DNA from: Sphingobacteriales bacterium
GTDB taxonomy: Bacteria > Bacteroidota > Bacteroidia > Chitinophagales > JADIYW01
DNA length: 63,645 nucleotides
Reading direction: 5' to 3'
Assembly (NCBI GenBank): GCA_947460245.1
Contig: CANHGL010000010.1
Coordinates: forward strand, 1 to 63,645
The number at the start of each line of letters is the position of its first letter. Position 1 is the first letter of the stretch. The notes below the pieces were generated by a model that worked only from the letters and a program-made list of their open reading frames with translations, did no database searches and was not told where the DNA came from. This document shows positions 6,807 through 13,585 of this stretch, piece by piece. Both the position numbers and the translations under genes were made by a program.

Positions 6807-6830
6807 TCCATAAGTATTGCTCTGTATATA

Positions 6831-6858
6831 AGACCTCACTCTTCGTGAGGTCTTTTTA
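6831..6858 (+). terminator. Rho-independent terminator of icd
   Basis: A 9-bp perfect stem (AGACCTCAC / GTGAGGTCT) with a 5-nt loop, followed by TTTTATTTTT. It lies 25 nt after the icd stop. Confidence 0.9.
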
Positions 6859-6920: not shown

Positions 6921-8174
6921 ATGAACCGTATAATACTTGCTCTTTTACTATTTATAACGCTACCTATAAGGGCGTCTTTTATCCTTTTACCAATGGATGA
7001 GGTTCAAACTGATCATTTAAAAGCTTATGGAATTGCCTATTGGATGCTGACTAAAAATATACCTGTAGACTGGCTACTTAATTACCGTGGTGGAAGCTTT
7101 GCATTTCCGTATGACAAAAACCTTGAAAAAGAGTGCCTTATTCGTAATGTAAAATTTGAAACCATTGCTGATGCCAGCATGAGTAAGATATTACAGGACA
7201 TTGCCAACCCAGAAGTAAATATGGATGCAGTAAGGTTAGAGAAGCCGCCAAAAGTAGCCGTATATTCTCCAAAAACCAATAATCCATGGGACGATGCGGT
7301 AACCCTTGTTTTAGAGTATGCAGAGATACCTTACAAAGTAATCTATGATGAAGAAATCTTAGATGATGAATTACATTTATACGATTGGCTGCACCTGCAT
7401 CATGAAGACTTTACAGGACAATACGGAAGATTTTGGGGAGCTTATCAGTTTGCAGATTGGTATCAGAAGCAAGTAGCCGATTACGAAAAAAGAGCAAAAA
7501 ATTTAGGCTTCAATAAAGTATCAGAAGAAAAACTTGCAGTAGCTAAAAAAATAAAAGACTTTGTGATGGGTGGAGGATTTATGTTTGCCATGTGCTCAGC
7601 TACCGACTCGTATGATATTGCACTTGCTGCAGAAGGCATTGATATTTGTCCACCGCAATTTGACTACGATGCAATAGACCCAGATGCACAGCGTAAATTA
7701 GACTACAGCAAGGGATTTGCATTTAAGGATTATACCATTAGTACAAATCCTTATGAGTATGAGTTCTCTTCCATCGATGTACCGCAGGTAAGGCAGATAG
7801 AAGAAAATATAGATTACTTCTCCCTATTTGATTTTTCTGCCAAGTGGGATCAGATACCATCTATGCTTACACAAGATCATGAAAAGTTGGTAAAAGGATT
7901 TATGGGGCAAACCACAGCCTATAAAAAGCAGTATATAAAATCAGACGTATTAATATTGGGAGAAAATAAAAGTTTAAACGAAGCTAAATATATTCATGGC
8001 ACCTATGGTAAAGGCACATGGACCTTTTATGGCGGCCATGACCCGGAAGATTATCAGCATCGGGTAGGAGATCCAAAAACAGAACTTAGGCTACATCCTA
8101 ATTCTGCAGGCTACCGGCTTATTCTCAATAATATATTATTTCCTGCAGCCAAGAAAAAGCCGCAAAAAACCTAA
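6921..8174 (+). CDS. Conserved secreted Bacteroidota protein, often labelled 'asparagine synthetase B'
   Basis: The ATG at 6921 gives a 417-residue product with a signal peptide (MNRIILALLLFITLPIRAS). An in-frame TTG at 6906 is less likely. It resembles a protein widely conserved in Bacteroidota that databases often call asparagine synthetase B; I recall the shared segments WLLNYRGGSF, YDWLHLHHEDFTGQYG, GGGFMFAMCSATDS and FYGGHDPEDYQHRVGDP. I see neither the N-terminal Cys nucleophile of class II glutamine amidotransferases nor the PP-loop (SGGxD) of asparagine synthetases. With a signal peptide, that catalytic name looks wrong. Parts recall the class I glutamine amidotransferase-like fold (MCSATDS), which is only a suggestion. 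It is monocistronic with its own terminator. Confidence 0.8.
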   Translation: MNRIILALLLFITLPIRASFILLPMDEVQTDHLKAYGIAYWMLTKNIPVDWLLNYRGGSFAFPYDKNLEKECLIRNVKFETIADASMSKILQDIANPEVNMDAVRLEKPPKVAVYSPKTNNPWDDAVTLVLEYAEIPYKVIYDEEILDDELHLYDWLHLHHEDFTGQYGRFWGAYQFADWYQKQVADYEKRAKNLGFNKVSEEKLAVAKKIKDFVMGGGFMFAMCSATDSYDIALAAEGIDICPPQFDYDAIDPDAQRKLDYSKGFAFKDYTISTNPYEYEFSSIDVPQVRQIEENIDYFSLFDFSAKWDQIPSMLTQDHEKLVKGFMGQTTAYKKQYIKSDVLILGENKSLNEAKYIHGTYGKGTWTFYGGHDPEDYQHRVGDPKTELRLHPNSAGYRLILNNILFPAAKKKPQKT

Positions 8175-8216: not shown

Positions 8217-8300
8217 GGGGGTTTTAATGTTTCTTGGGTTTTAGTTTCCTTTCGGGGTTTGTTTCTGAGGATTTATGTTTCTTTTGGGTTTCTATGTTTC
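8217..8300. repeat. Degenerate tandem repeat, about five 17-nt units
   Basis: Directly after the terminator come about five imperfect copies of a unit close to GGGTTTTATGTTTCTTT. They start near 8219, 8237, 8254, 8269 and 8286, and each has the form GG(G/A)TTT followed by GTTTC. The segment is nearly free of adenine on the plus strand compared with its surroundings. No start or stop logic makes it coding. Function unknown. Confidence 0.55.
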
Positions 8301-8474
8301 TATCCTCATTTGGTACTGTAAATATGCAGCCAATTCTTTCGGAATAAAATGTCGAATTAGTATATTTTGTGACATGCTTATTAGTACATACTTTAAAAAG
8401 CATATGTTAGGGACAATAGGACAGTCCACAACAAGGGAAAGAATAATAAATTTAGAAAAAGTAGAGCGGGAGAA
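8301..8474. other. Gene-free stretch between repeat and purS
   Basis: The non-genic interval is 8175-8474. Apart from the terminator and repeat I see only a weak imperfect hairpin (ACATGCTT at 8372-8379 against AAGCATATGT at 8398-8407), downstream of the purS stop. It lacks a U-tract on either strand. Confidence 0.4.
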
Positions 8475-8720
8475 TTATTCGTGGATGATAAATTCAAAAT
8501 ACTCCATAACAGGATTATGGAGTAATCTCTTACAGGCATCTTTTACCTGTTCTGTTGCTGACTCTTTGCTTTCTGCTTCAATTTTCAGCGTGATATGTTT
8601 ACCTATACGAACATTAGAAGCTTTGAATTCCAGTTTATTTAAACTGCTTTCTACGGCTTTTCCCTGTGGATCTAATAGCTCCTTTAGTGGCATTATATTT
8701 ATTTCGGCGGTATACATCAT
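8475..8720 (-). CDS. purS: Phosphoribosylformylglycinamidine synthase subunit PurS
   Basis: PurS is the small subunit of the three-part FGAM synthase (PurS/PurQ/PurL) of de novo purine synthesis. It forms a dimer bridging the amidotransferase and synthetase subunits. The 81-residue product shows the family pattern LLDPQGKAVESSL, VRIGKHITLKIEA and a C-terminal KRLLHNPVMEYFEF. The start is one of two adjacent ATG codons (8720 or 8717); the TTG at 8726 is part of the -7 promoter box and cannot be the start of a normal transcript. purQ and purL are not nearby. Short length and family agree, so I am fairly sure. Confidence 0.88.
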   Translation of the reverse strand: MMYTAEINIMPLKELLDPQGKAVESSLNKLEFKASNVRIGKHITLKIEAESKESATEQVKDACKRLLHNPVMEYFEFIIHE

Positions 8721-8723
8721 ATT

Positions 8724-8753
8724 CAAAAGTAAATACTAAAATGTAAAAAGCAA
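8724..8753 (-). promoter_or_regulatory. Promoter of purS, abutting the start codon
   Basis: Minus strand: TTG (8751-8753), 19 nt, then TACTTTTG (8724-8731). This is a full consensus match. Only 3 nt separate the -7 box from the first ATG, so the mRNA should be leaderless or nearly so. Confidence 0.7.
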
Positions 8754-8777: not shown

Positions 8778-10364
8778 TTAGTGCGCATCGCTCATCGGAC
8801 CAGCACCAAGCTTATAGGTTTTAGCAAGTAATACAAATGGGACAGATAAACAGATAAATAAAGACATGTACTGAAACAAGTCGATATAGCTAAGAATAGA
8901 CGCCTGCCTATTGATAGTAAAATCTAACAAAGCATAGCCCTGTGTGGTGGCAGTTGAAATATCCGAAGTATGTTGCAGCATTGCACCTGTTGCACCTGCC
9001 ATACGTTGCTGTAAAAGAGGATTATCGGGAGTTACGTGTAGTAAGATATCTGCACGATGCTGAGCAGTTATTCGTTCTGAAAGTACACTAATCAAAGCAA
9101 CGCTGATGGAACCTCCAATCTGGCGAATCATATTAGATAAACCACTCGCCTGGCCTATATCTTTTCCCTGCAAGCCACCTAAGGTCATATTAGATAAAGG
9201 CACAAACAACAAGGCCATTCCAATACCTCTAATCAATAATGGCCAGAAAAAGAATTCCTGTCCGGTACCTGTAGTAAAAATCATGGACGACCAAAAAGAG
9301 AAGACAGCTGTTATGAGGAATCCACCGGTAATCATAAATTTTGGAGGTACACCTTTGGAAAGCATTATACCAATCATTGGCATCAGGAATCCACTTGTCA
9401 TGGCACCAGGAATAAACAAAGCACCCGTTTGCTGTGCGGTAAAGCCAAGATAGCGCTGGAAATAAATAGGGTAAACGAATACTGTACCAAATAAAATAAA
9501 CCCGAGCAGAAAATTCATTAGAGTACCAATGGCGACATTTCGTTTCGTTAATATTCTTAAATCTACTACAGGGTTTTCTGCTGTTAATTCACGCGCTATA
9601 AAACCCAAGACACCTACAACTGCTGCTATAAAAAATACTACGATAAAATAAGACTCAAACCAATCTTTACGTTCACCCTGCTCTAGGACCATCTGTAATG
9701 ACCCGACACCAATAATTAGAAGTATAATACCCAACCAGTCCACTCCTTTGTCATCAGGTTTATCAAATGGATTATCCTTTATAAAGTTGAGGGTAAGGAA
9801 GACCGCAGCTATACCAATTGGAATATTCACATAAAATATCGCCGGCCAGGAATAGTGATCAATCAGATAACCGCCTACAACTGGACCTAATGTTGGACCA
9901 ATGATTACACCCATTCCAAACATTGCCATTGCCATTCCAATTTTTTCGGGGGGATAGACTTCTTTAAGAATAGTCTGTGAGGTAGCAAATAATGCTCCAC
10001 CCCCAATACCCTGCATAAACCTCCAAAATACCAACATCCAGATGTTAGAAGACAAACCACACATTAAGGAGGAAAATGTAAAAAGCGCTACAGAACTTGC
10101 AAAATATAATTTTCTTCCAAACTGCCTGGACAACCAACCGCTCATAGGAACAATAATGACATTTGCAATCGCATATGAGGCAATCACCCAGCTAATCTCA
10201 CTGACAGTTGCACCCAGATTTCCCATCAAAGTAGTCGTAGCTACATTAACGATAGTTGTATCCAGAATCTCCAAAAGTGTACAAAGCACCACCGTTATAG
10301 TAATAATGGCACGTCTGTACCCGTATTCAACTAATATACTTGGATCATATGTTTGCGTTTGCAT
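8778..10364 (-). CDS. emrB: DHA2 family drug efflux transporter, EmrB type
   Basis: The inner-membrane proton antiporter of a tripartite pump. The 528 residues form about 14 hydrophobic segments, as in the DHA2 (14-TM) group of the major facilitator superfamily. Motifs visible are LDTTIVNVA in TM1, WLSRQFGRK in the first cytoplasmic loop (motif A), and GIGGGALFATSQTILKE (motif B/C region). It is the last gene of the TetR-TolC-HlyD-EmrB operon, 57 bp after emrA. Substrates cannot be told from sequence. The EmrB name is by family; E. coli EmrB exports uncouplers and hydrophobic drugs. Confidence 0.92.
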   Translation of the reverse strand: MQTQTYDPSILVEYGYRRAIITITVVLCTLLEILDTTIVNVATTTLMGNLGATVSEISWVIASYAIANVIIVPMSGWLSRQFGRKLYFASSVALFTFSSLMCGLSSNIWMLVFWRFMQGIGGGALFATSQTILKEVYPPEKIGMAMAMFGMGVIIGPTLGPVVGGYLIDHYSWPAIFYVNIPIGIAAVFLTLNFIKDNPFDKPDDKGVDWLGIILLIIGVGSLQMVLEQGERKDWFESYFIVVFFIAAVVGVLGFIARELTAENPVVDLRILTKRNVAIGTLMNFLLGFILFGTVFVYPIYFQRYLGFTAQQTGALFIPGAMTSGFLMPMIGIMLSKGVPPKFMITGGFLITAVFSFWSSMIFTTGTGQEFFFWPLLIRGIGMALLFVPLSNMTLGGLQGKDIGQASGLSNMIRQIGGSISVALISVLSERITAQHRADILLHVTPDNPLLQQRMAGATGAMLQHTSDISTATTQGYALLDFTINRQASILSYIDLFQYMSLFICLSVPFVLLAKTYKLGAGPMSDAH

Positions 10365-10421
10365 GTAAGTAGAGATAAATGATTAAACCTTTAAACCGAA
10401 ATAATTATCCATAAAATAAAA

Positions 10422-11549
10422 CTATTTTATTTTTACAGCAACAGTCACATTCATACCTGCACGTAAATCGTACTTGTCACTTTTATCATCTATAAGTCGG
10501 ATACGCACTGGGACACGCTGAACTACTTTCACAAAATTACCTGTAGAATTGTCTGCAGGCATCAATGAAAACTTAGATCCGGTAGCAGCTTGTAGAGATT
10601 CTATCTTGCCTTTTACCTTTATACCAGGATAGGCATCTACCTTTACTTCTACATCCTGACCAACCTTCATGCGTTCAATCTGCGTCTCTTTAAAATTGGC
10701 AGTTATCCATAGCTCACTATCATCTACCAAACTCATGAGTATCTGACCCGCATTCACTAATTGGCCGGATTGTATTCCTTTTTTTGCGATAAAGCCATCG
10801 GCAGGAGCAAGAATATAGGCGTATGATAATTGTAATTTGGCAAAATCAATATCTGCTTGGCGTTGCTGTATACCTACTTCTGCCAAACTAACCTGTGTAC
10901 CTACTCCACTAGCCTGCGTAGAAGATGCAGAAGCCAGCCGTTGAGTAGTTTTTAACTGAGCCTGTGCAACAGCCAATTGTTTTTCGGTAATTTGTAATTG
11001 TCTTTCTGCAGACTGTTTCTCAGCAGAAGCTGCATCATACTGTTGTTGCGTAGCAGATGTTTGTCGAAATAATTGCTCATAACGTTTAAAATTTTCCGTG
11101 GCATTCCAGACGCGAACTTTTGCTGCCTCTATATTCGCCTGCGCGGTTTCTATATTTGCTTCTGAAGTCGCTATAGTTGAAGACGAAGCACTAGCAGATG
11201 CATCAGCACTATACCTATTGCTTTTTGCCACATTCACATTTGCCCCAGCATTGATTAAATTGATTTCCGCTTGTTGAAGTTTAATCTTCAGGTCTCTGTC
11301 ATCTAGCTTTAACAAGGTATCCCCTTTATGCACGCGCTGATTTTCTTTTACATATACTTCATCAATATATCCTGAAATACGAGCAGATACCGGTATGATA
11401 TTACACTCAATCTGAGAATTCTCTGTATCCTCGTTGTGAATAGCATAATTGATTTTCTTAAAAACAAAAAATACAGCTATTAGCAATACTATTGCACCAA
11501 CTATAGGTACTATTTTTTTCTTTTTCGATTTGTTTTCTGTGTTTTCCAT
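10422..11549 (-). CDS. emrA: Periplasmic adaptor (membrane fusion) protein, HlyD/EmrA type
   Basis: Links the EmrB transporter to the outer-membrane TolC channel. The 375 residues include an N-terminal basic stretch and one membrane helix (about 13-28), the first half of the biotinyl-lipoyl domain (VYVKENQRVHKGDTLLKLDD), a long Ala/Gln-rich coiled-coil hairpin (about 80-225), the second lipoyl half (APADGFIAKKGIQSGQLV), and the beta-barrel domain (LWITANFKETQIERMKVGQ). This order is diagnostic. Middle of the efflux operon, 45 bp after the TolC gene. Confidence 0.93.
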   Translation of the reverse strand: MENTENKSKKKKIVPIVGAIVLLIAVFFVFKKINYAIHNEDTENSQIECNIIPVSARISGYIDEVYVKENQRVHKGDTLLKLDDRDLKIKLQQAEINLINAGANVNVAKSNRYSADASASASSSTIATSEANIETAQANIEAAKVRVWNATENFKRYEQLFRQTSATQQQYDAASAEKQSAERQLQITEKQLAVAQAQLKTTQRLASASSTQASGVGTQVSLAEVGIQQRQADIDFAKLQLSYAYILAPADGFIAKKGIQSGQLVNAGQILMSLVDDSELWITANFKETQIERMKVGQDVEVKVDAYPGIKVKGKIESLQAATGSKFSLMPADNSTGNFVKVVQRVPVRIRLIDDKSDKYDLRAGMNVTVAVKIK

Positions 11550-11594
11550 TGTTTACTATTATTCGTTTATTATAATGCTTATTCTATATTTCTA

Positions 11595-12914
11595 TTATTT
11601 GATGGCTCCTAAACTTTTCTGTAGTTTGTAATTAACCAATGCAGCATCGGCCTGTGCATTCAGTAATTGAGTTTCTGCCTGTAACAATAATTGATCTGCC
11701 TCTAATACATCTGTTAGCAATGCTACCTGAGCCACAAACCTATTATCAAGTATACGTTTGTTTTCTGCCGACTGCTCAATTGCCTTCTTAGCTAAATCTA
11801 TTTTTAATAAAGCAACCTTAAACGCCTCATAATTCGCATTTACTTCCATCTGTATCCCCTCCTTAAGTTGCTCCGTAACTTTCTGAATCTGGGCTTTTTG
11901 GTTAGTCGATTCATTAACTACTGCTCTTGCTGTATACAGCTGCAGGATATTCCAGTTCATAGATACGCCAATATCCCAGGTAGCTTTAAACTTTGCCTCT
12001 TGAGGAAACACTCGCTGATTAGGATTATTTACATACCCGTCTGCTATAAAATTGAGTGTTGGCAGGTAAGCACTCTTTGAAGCCTTGATTGCATAATTTG
12101 CAGCGTCAGTTCGCGCTTCCTGTGCCTTTAAATCTGCCCTGTTTGAAAAGGAAGCAGTTATGAGGTCATCAATATTGGCTGTCGAAAATATAAATACTTC
12201 AGGCCCTTCTACTTCTATAATTGTTTTAGTATCCAACCCCAATAAAAGGCAAAGATTAAAATTGGTAATTTCAATGGCACTTTCTACATCTGCTTTATTT
12301 ACCAGTAAATTTGTTTTCTGTAGTTCTGCACGCATAACATCGTTATTTAATGCCAATCCTACATTTTTAAATCTGGAAACATCCTCAACGCGAGCTTGTG
12401 TTTGCGCAATACTAGAATCCAGCAATATATTTGTTTGGTATAATTTAAACAGTGTATAATATACTTGTGCTACATTCCATTTAGCATCCTCTTTATCCTT
12501 CTGAATATCAAAATCTATTGCCATTTGTTGAAATTTCAATGCCTTCAGTGTATTCCAATTACGTAATCCAGAAAAAACAGGCTGCTGTAAGTAGAAACGA
12601 TTATTGTACTGATTCAGAATAATTGGATTTAAAGTAAATGCTCCTAAACCAGGAAGAGCTATAGTAAAAGGGTCAATATTATTGCTAATTCTGGAGTAAC
12701 TGGAGCTCACTCCCAATACCGGCAACATCGCATTCTGTGTTTGCTTTTTCTTTATGTCAAGCGCTTGTTTCTTCAGATCATCTGTTTGTAATTGCTTACT
12801 AGACTCTGTAGCCAAATCAAATGCCTCACGCAGTGATATTTTCTTGAACTGCTGTGCAGGTAAAAGATGGACAGATAACAATAGCAAGGAAGTTAAAATA
12901 TAATTGCGCATCAT
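11595..12914 (-). CDS. tolC: TolC-family outer-membrane efflux protein
   Basis: The outer-membrane channel of the efflux pump. The 439-residue product has a signal peptide (MMRNYILTSLLLLSVHLLPAQQ) and two OEP repeats of long amphipathic helices rich in Gln and Ala, with short beta segments (YNNRFYLQQPVFSGL and VSMNWNILQLY) that form the barrel. Its ATG overlaps the TetR TGA stop (ATGA), so the two are probably translationally coupled. Of the two consecutive ATG codons, the first is taken. The name is by function; sequence identity to E. coli TolC is expected to be low. Confidence 0.9.
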   Translation of the reverse strand: MMRNYILTSLLLLSVHLLPAQQFKKISLREAFDLATESSKQLQTDDLKKQALDIKKKQTQNAMLPVLGVSSSYSRISNNIDPFTIALPGLGAFTLNPIILNQYNNRFYLQQPVFSGLRNWNTLKALKFQQMAIDFDIQKDKEDAKWNVAQVYYTLFKLYQTNILLDSSIAQTQARVEDVSRFKNVGLALNNDVMRAELQKTNLLVNKADVESAIEITNFNLCLLLGLDTKTIIEVEGPEVFIFSTANIDDLITASFSNRADLKAQEARTDAANYAIKASKSAYLPTLNFIADGYVNNPNQRVFPQEAKFKATWDIGVSMNWNILQLYTARAVVNESTNQKAQIQKVTEQLKEGIQMEVNANYEAFKVALLKIDLAKKAIEQSAENKRILDNRFVAQVALLTDVLEADQLLLQAETQLLNAQADAALVNYKLQKSLGAIK

Positions 12915-13528
12915 TCTTTAATTAATAATTGATTAGTTAACATATCTGCAATAAAGCCTTTAATTCTAGTTCTGTGTTTGTTGTCATACACTTCCTCAAC
13001 AGACTCCTTATGCATTATTTTACACATCATGGTGCTGGAAGTGGCATACATTCGTATAATAGCAAAAATCGAGATTACGGTTAATTCTACATCTACAGGT
13101 TTAAATTCTTTTTTCTTTATACCTTTTTTTACAATATCTGAAACGTATAAAAAGTTACGTTCCATGTGCTCGATTAAAAAATCTGCCATATGTGTACGCT
13201 GATTCAAACTCATTTCCCGAAAAATAATAATCTGGAAATAACGATTATCGAAAAAGCTATTGGTTACAACATCTGTAATGGCTATTAATTTATCATAATG
13301 TGAGGGGAACTCAACGTAGGCTTCTTCAAATCTTTCAATTGGAATAAGCTTCCTTCTGATTACATCTTCATATAATTTTTCTTTGGAGCCAAAATAGTAA
13401 GATACCATAGCAATATTGATATCCGCTGCTCTGGAAATCTCCCTTATACTTACTGCATCAAACCCCTGCTCAGCGAAAAGACGCTCAGCAACATCGAGAA
13501 TATATGCCGTTTTATCGGTTAAGATCAT
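12911..13528 (-). CDS. TetR-family repressor of the efflux operon
   Basis: First gene of the operon. The 205-residue product starts MILTDKTAYILDVAERLF. A longer reading frame begins at a TTG at 13577-13579, but that TTG is the -33 promoter box, so the ATG at 13528 is the start. The N-terminal helix-turn-helix is typical (GFDAVSIREISRAADINIAM, then VSYYFGSKEKLYEDVI). The C-terminal ligand-binding part is helical. TetR repressors beside EmrAB/TolC genes usually respond to the pump's substrate. The promoter contains two overlapping inverted repeats, which fits autorepression and control of the whole operon. Confidence 0.92.
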   Translation of the reverse strand: MILTDKTAYILDVAERLFAEQGFDAVSIREISRAADINIAMVSYYFGSKEKLYEDVIRRKLIPIERFEEAYVEFPSHYDKLIAITDVVTNSFFDNRYFQIIIFREMSLNQRTHMADFLIEHMERNFLYVSDIVKKGIKKKEFKPVDVELTVISIFAIIRMYATSSTMMCKIMHKESVEEVYDNKHRTRIKGFIADMLTNQLLIKE

Positions 13529-13548
13529 CAAATAAGTATTAAGAGGTG

Positions 13549-13585
13549 CAAAGTTAATTAAACGTTTGTTTAAATTCAAATTTAA
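13549..13585 (-). promoter_or_regulatory. Promoter and probable TetR operator of the efflux operon
   Basis: Minus strand: TTG (13577-13579), 20 nt, TAACTTTG (13549-13556). This is an exact consensus promoter, 20 nt from the TetR ATG. Between and over the boxes lie two overlapping inverted repeats: TTAAAC-GTTT-GTTTAA (13558-13573) and TTAAATT-CA-AATTTAA (13570-13585). The first fills the spacer and the second covers the -33 box, the usual places for a repressor to block polymerase. Confidence 0.7.

Follow-up and report, generated by a model that had tools for sequence, protein, structure and literature searches.

A conserved exported protein family of Bacteroidota with a predicted class I amidotransferase-like fold and a co-occurring TPR protein

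P0001, the 417-residue product of a gene in the window (the whole stretch of DNA analysed, 63,645 nucleotides of a Sphingobacteriales genome), belongs to a strongly conserved family found in about 70% of the sampled genomes of its phylum. Its members end in a shared basic tail and co-occur with a TPR protein, whose gene is often adjacent outside the window's class. Our best reading, which we put forward tentatively, is that P0001 is an envelope thiol enzyme working with this exported TPR protein. In its favour are the predicted fold, an invariant cysteine (Cys225) placed as in a nucleophile elbow, invariant loops that follow strands, the co-occurrence and adjacency with the TPR gene, and the predicted export of both proteins. 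Against it stand the lack of sequence similarity to real amidotransferases, the A-M-C-S-A sequence of the elbow, the loss of E376 in one paralogue, and the separation of the two genes in the window's class. It is surprising that a family so conserved, widespread and tightly paired is still unnamed. Although 76 of its positions and its C-terminus are invariant, it has no Pfam or NCBIfam model. New here are the C-terminal -KT tail, the TPR partner and the co-occurrence with SprA; the tail, the partner and a separate N-terminal domain go beyond the preliminary description of the gene.

The gene and its surroundings

The ORF at 6921 to 8174 on the plus strand, from which the preliminary description started, is genuine: its coordinates and frame were confirmed, with an ATG at 6921, a stop codon at 8172-8174 that is included in the interval, and a product of 417 aa. 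A homology search of the window's own genome found one copy. Residues 1-18 (6921..6974, plus strand) are a predicted signal peptide by hydropathy, with cleavage probably after Ala18, a residue that 90% or more of the rows retain in an alignment of 36. By a simple hydropathy count, which is not SignalP, 176/176 family ORFs have a hydrophobic stretch ahead of the mature domain, in agreement with the earlier proposal that the protein is exported; export would presumably follow the Sec route.

A terminator-like hairpin of 10 pairs followed by a T-rich stretch (6830..6854, plus strand) lies between the isocitrate dehydrogenase gene and the P0001 gene; the region contains 4 such sites compared to 1.6 expected from shuffles. 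Because this hairpin separates the two genes, the P0001 gene is probably transcribed alone, as its own unit. Downstream, a 154-aa ORF at 8275-8739 has no Pfam match and is probably not a gene, and four minus-strand genes at 8778-13579, with matches to MFS_1, HlyD, OEP and TetR_N, resemble a drug-efflux cluster of the tripartite type together with its regulator.

Distribution and conservation of the family

With P0001 as query, 198 genomes from the order were searched and 148 contained a homologue. Among the matches listed in that search, full-length main copies are 58-86% identical to P0001, and one second copy is 47% identical. A profile made from A1, an alignment of 36 family members, was run against 395 sampled genomes from the phylum and detected the family in 275. 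A scan of named genomes returned at least 585 relatives, and the best 80 of these at least 585 carry titles of Bacteroidota or one of its subgroups, apart from one entitled 'uncultured bacterium'. A phage or plasmid origin was set aside, since the annotated phage and plasmid collections contained no homologue.

The family alignment was assembled from the ORFs at 176 of 180 loci together with P0001, giving 173 distinct rows, some of which are the same gene fetched twice. Left out were L141, which is only a 10-base stretch, and L146, L164 and one of L001-L110, for which the ORF table holds no family ORF. Across the 173 rows, 76 of the 417 positions are invariant, including H158, H160, H161, E162, D163, C225, H373, D374, P375, D377 and T417. 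M224 is likewise kept in 173/173 rows, and E376 in 172/173. Strong conservation had been claimed in the preliminary description, and both motifs quoted there do rank with the best-conserved parts of the protein; M224, C225 and H373 to D377 proved near-invariant, but the Arg of QHRVGDP varies among the 36 aligned rows and is not a conserved position.

Neither P0001 nor the 36 members of A1 matched any Pfam or NCBIfam family better than chance, and P0001 had no match above chance to the sequences of solved structures. Several low-scoring matches were dismissed as chance: Suppressor_APC and SWIRM-assoc_3, which only 2/36 and 4/36 members match; rad24, which scored 15.6 bits (E 0.004) where the cut-off is 482 and is matched by 1/36 members; and RAD17. 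The literature searched yielded no published description of the family or of a function for it, and in a paper on Bacteroidetes signature proteins (PMC1887533) the terms 'asparagine' and 'amidotransferase' have 0 occurrences. The family is absent from the searched model libraries, yet lies within a known fold superfamily, as described below.

Some genomes carry additional or altered copies. The second copy with 47% identity, L194 (G053:C6, match 354201-355415), has HDPV for HDPE and a type IX secretion system (T9SS) sorting domain in place of the basic tail. L192 and L193 (G375:C6 and G552:C1, family f30) are divergent second copies with changes in PWDDA and in the last part of HDPEDYQH; they still have Cys225, HHEDFTGQ and the tail. 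The 8.8-Mb genome G181 has three copies (L182, L191 and L198; G181:C1), of which two lie next to each other, and G163:C32 has two side-by-side copies. On G455:C53 and G114:C68 the family gene lies in three and two overlapping pieces, respectively, in differing frames, suggestive of a broken gene or an assembly error.

The asparagine synthetase B label

The preliminary description reported the label 'asparagine synthetase B' for this protein and held it to be likely wrong. That judgement stands, and P0001 is almost certainly not AsnB. Residue 2 is Asn and not the Cys of class II (Ntn) amidotransferases, and the protein starts with a hydrophobic leader. The PF00733 (Asn_synthase) and class II amidotransferase models gave no match at E up to 10 with P0001 or the 36 A1 members, and the predicted structure shows neither an Ntn amidotransferase nor an AsnB ATP-pyrophosphatase domain, the combination named beforehand as the finding that would overturn this view. 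We therefore rejected an identity with AsnB, given the missing Cys2, the missing AsnB domains and two true PF00733 genes elsewhere in the genome (G000:C6 and C26). Fold, size, N-terminus and location all differ between AsnB and P0001, and the label, as given in the preliminary description, is all that they have in common; where it is used, it conceals the P0001 family. In the available part of PMC6120980, 'asparagine synthetase B' appears in the context of a 605-aa protein of an O-glycosylation locus.

Predicted fold

AlphaFold2, supplied with A1 as alignment, returned a model of P0001 with pLDDT 84.5 and pTM 0.86, in which two domains follow the signal peptide. The N-terminal domain, residues 19-107 (6975..7241, plus strand), is predicted to be ferredoxin-like (beta-alpha-beta-beta-alpha-beta), and the N-terminal part folded alone again appeared ferredoxin-like (pLDDT 88.7). 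Foldseek with the model of this domain gave no hit at E <= 0.001. UreE C-terminal domains (3l9z, 3tj8) ranked at the top for it with Z 7.8, a weak resemblance that may reflect merely the common ferredoxin-like arrangement.

For the C-terminal domain, residues 108-411 (7242..8153, plus strand), both Foldseek and VIA-align point to a class I amidotransferase/ThuA-like fold. The best Foldseek match for the P0001 model had an E of 2.5e-5. With residues 108-412, the two highest VIA-align scores went to 5xb7, a GH42 middle domain (Z 13.2), and to 8aa2, which is chain G of the levan utilisome (Z 13.1); further matches were the ThuA-like protein 1t0b (Z 12.4; 196 residues, 3.4 A), 2gk3 (Z 12.1), 3soz (Z 11.9), 4pxy (Z 11.8), PdxT 2iss (Z 11.6; 174 residues, 3.0 A), 3rht (Z 11.5) and 2nv0 (Z 11.2). 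The main domain of P0001 thus very probably has, as modelled, a class I amidotransferase-like fold (Z 11-13), in keeping with the guess of a class I amidotransferase-like or ThuA-like fold in the preliminary description.

By sequence, P0001 lies outside the class I amidotransferase family. PF00117 matched none of the 36 A1 members, and hhalign of the P0001 profile, a shallow one with Neff 2.1, against 30 GATase domains from nine genomes gave a probability of 0.1%. PF06283 (ThuA) had no match in the 36 A1 members at E up to 10 and none in the window's genome, with two sub-threshold hits in relatives. To the ThuA-like and GATase1-like proteins (1t0b, 2gk3, 3soz, 3rht and 4pxy), residues 108-412 are similar in predicted fold, but identity is ~10%, there is no common Pfam match and the motifs differ; in addition, P0001 has an extra N-terminal domain, a signal peptide, an invariant tail and a TPR partner. 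The class I glutamine amidotransferases (PdxT 2iss and 2nv0; PF00117) have in common with modelled P0001 the fold, a Cys at a strand-helix turn and a His after a late strand. Their signature is a G-x-C-x-G elbow and H-P-E, whereas P0001 has A-M-C-S-A and H-D-P-E, shows no profile similarity to them and is exported, and the P0001 gene neighbourhoods examined contain no synthase partner. The two highest-scoring structures, 5xb7 and 8aa2, belong to glycan enzymes and to a glycan-uptake complex, respectively, and have no family model in common with P0001.

A candidate active site around Cys225

Three conserved loops, each after a strand, would most likely form a single active site. The first, H158-Q167 (HLHHEDFTGQ; 7392..7421, plus strand), follows strand 156-160, and F164, G166 and Q167 are invariant there in the 173 rows along with the His, Glu and Asp residues listed above. 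The second holds Met-Cys225 (Cys225, 7593..7595, plus strand), which the model places at the turn between strand 220-224 and helix 226-236, a nucleophile-elbow position. The third, GGHDPED at residues 371-377 (8031..8051, plus strand), follows strand 365-370 and contains the candidate catalytic residues His373 and Asp374. Strand-Cys-helix turns are typical of nucleophile elbows, and in class I amidotransferases the catalytic H-P-E comes after a late strand, a placement that H373-D-P-E appears to parallel in the P0001 model.

In 8 of the 173 rows, Cys225 is the sole Cys of the mature part and so is not in a disulfide there. It is also kept in 12/12 further or divergent sequences examined, including paralogue L194, which has lost E376 and the basic tail. 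This retention, together with its being the only mature Cys in 8 rows, argues for a free, functional thiol that acts as a nucleophile or a metal ligand. We regard thiol catalysis by P0001 as nearly an even call, falling slightly on the doubtful side. If it occurs, Cys225, together with His373 and Asp374, would be a thiol nucleophile attacking an amide- or ester-type linkage in a substrate of the envelope, in a hydrolase or transferase reaction that would do without AsnB-type ATP chemistry.

The dense invariant His, Asp and Glu residues of two loops and the free Cys would also suit a metal site, in which H158/H160/H161/E162/D163, C225 and H373/D374 bind metal and P0001 is a metal-dependent hydrolase or a periplasmic metal-handling protein. 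We consider this unlikely: the turn that holds Cys225 is of the type just described for nucleophiles, and no metal-site family of Pfam or NCBIfam matched P0001 or the 36 members. A lead in its favour comes from Bizionia argentinensis, where an 'asparagine synthetase B' transcript is one of the ten with the strongest decrease when the iron regulator MliR is mutated (PMC9478572); the available text of that paper gives no locus tag, so that membership in the P0001 family is a lead only.

The domain might instead be a non-catalytic binder of a glycan, peptide or lipid, with the TPR protein as its docking partner. Related domains occur in glycan enzymes and uptake complexes, the source of both top structural matches, and several of the top matches are non-catalytic domains, the GH42 middle domain being one, which counts against catalysis by P0001. 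However, 76 invariant positions across a phylum are seldom seen in binding proteins, and an invariant unpaired Cys at an elbow would be hard to explain without chemistry. We judge a pure binding role to be improbable, and retain the thiol enzyme as our tentative reading.

Co-occurrence with a TPR protein

In other classes, the P0001 family gene often lies downstream of one that encodes an exported TPR protein of ~620 aa, for which Pfam and NCBIfam give generic TPR matches only. A Gln stands at the leader end in 25/25 aligned TPR proteins; since this fits the Bacteroidetes Q-rule for exported proteins, as laid out in the available part of PMC10653852, these proteins are probably exported. In the window's genome the TPR gene is on another contig (G000:C27:2662-4461, minus strand), where it comes after sprA, gcvH and vanZ.

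In a test of 18 genomes with A3, a profile of the TPR protein, all 12 P0001-positive genomes had a near-full-length relative; of the 6 P0001-negative genomes, 3 gave short weak matches and 3 gave no match. We then scored the best few TPR candidates per genome in all 395 genomes with profile A4 at E <= 1e-30. The TPR protein was present in 271 genomes, namely 271/275 P0001-positive and 0/120 P0001-negative ones (phi 0.98); 120 genomes had neither gene, none had the TPR protein alone, and 4 had the P0001 family alone (G365, G397, G454 and G487). In G397 the family gene is a contig-edge fragment only. The other three have a whole family gene and no near-full-length TPR relative, although G365 could have a truncated partner: its best match lies in a frame of 287 aa and spans 276 of the 611 positions, at the N-terminal end. 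The Fisher value for this co-occurrence ignores relatedness and has no reading as a probability. Better evidence of pairing is joint absence beside close relatives that have both genes, as in G412 and G469 of genus g177, in genus g116 of family f28 and in 12/13 genomes of family f20 among those listed.

Gene order was examined at 39 loci (L142-L180) picked by eye from the phylum match list, 35 outside the window's class and 4 inside. At 20 of the 39, all 20 among the 35 outside the class, the family gene is preceded by the TPR gene in the same orientation (19 by the ORF table and L164 by match coordinates). The gap is at most 6 bp in 11 of those 19; 7 of the 11 are one-base overlaps, and one is an artefact of an over-long frame. 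The other 8 gaps, of 957-1,401 bp, contain an intervening gene, ClpX-like in 7, and ClpX adjoins the family gene in some groups. A TPR match in L146 was taken to be generic and rejected, because that genome has its best hit on another contig.

In the window's own class, the TPR and P0001 family genes are unlinked, and no TPR gene was found at E <= 1e-30 near the family gene in the loci of the best 80 of at least 585 relatives (flanks up to 8 kb). There, the family gene adjoins what we take to be dnaB at 43 of 79 loci, and at fewer loci genes that we take to be accA, a YjgP/YjgQ-like gene and tgt. No pathway emerged from these neighbours, and we abandoned them as a guide to function. The neighbourhood analysis suggested in the preliminary description was informative mainly outside the class, through the TPR gene. 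At L159, L165 and L168, in related genomes, the family gene directly follows a gene that is presumably flippase-like, two of the pairs overlapping by one base.

Taken together, a functional pairing of P0001 with the TPR protein seems likely. In the proposed mechanism the TPR protein would be a probable scaffold or substrate-presenting partner, contacting P0001 physically. It offers a first functional handle on the family, and predictions for the Cys, the His and the tail are testable in laboratory Bacteroidota. The pairing hints that the bacterial envelope has a machine of two proteins that is still undescribed.

Relation to type IX secretion

SprA (PF14349) is present in 303 of the 395 genomes, including 275/275 of those with the P0001 family, and the family occurs in 0/92 SprA-negative genomes. 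The association (phi 0.83) is looser than that with the TPR protein, and 14 of 20 SprA-negative genomes among those listed are from one family, f38. Because 28 SprA-positive genomes are without the P0001 family, the pair is not needed for T9SS. An accessory role is nevertheless possible, given the SprA co-occurrence, the position of the TPR gene after sprA-gcvH-vanZ in the window's genus, and the C-terminal T9SS sorting domain of paralogue L194 (TIGR04183, 42.6 bits, cut-off 23). Such a role, with the pair acting in the periplasm to process or chaperone the cargo or machinery of T9SS, we find doubtful, as SprA is common in the sample and the usual P0001-type protein has no sorting domain (TIGR04183 was absent from P0001 and the 36 A1 members). 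Rather unlikely, too, though less so, is the broadest version of our reading, a phylum-wide periplasmic machine in which a thiol enzyme of a new amidotransferase-fold family is paired with an exported TPR scaffold, is docked by its basic -KT tail and serves outer-envelope maturation or T9SS.

That sprA, a third gene, also tracks the P0001 family would be consistent with P0001 and the TPR protein being functionally unlinked, two envelope genes of ancient, vertical descent that the same lineages have lost, as would the non-independence of the sampled genomes and the separation of the two genes in the window's class; this is quite improbable against the complete lack of genomes with the TPR protein alone, the recurrent joint absences beside relatives with both, and the recurrence outside the class of adjacent genes with overlapping or near-touching ends.

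The C-terminal tail

P0001 ends in a basic tail, residues 410-417 (AKKKPQKT; 8148..8171, plus strand), the last residues of which are of low confidence in the AlphaFold2 model. The idea that it is a dedicated ligand of the TPR protein is weakened, since the tail persists in the three genomes that have a whole family gene but lack a near-full-length TPR relative, which argues against a role as TPR ligand only. In the reading we favour, it may serve in docking or retention in the envelope. A -KT end following a basic stretch is found in 174/176 family ORFs. Among the 1,675 other ORFs at these loci, 1 has a -KT end and 0 have the basic pattern. The variants include AAKKKKQKT (57), AARKKKQKT (27) and AAKKKPQKT (25); of the two exceptions, one ends in -RT and the other has the LKT tail residues followed by an extension.
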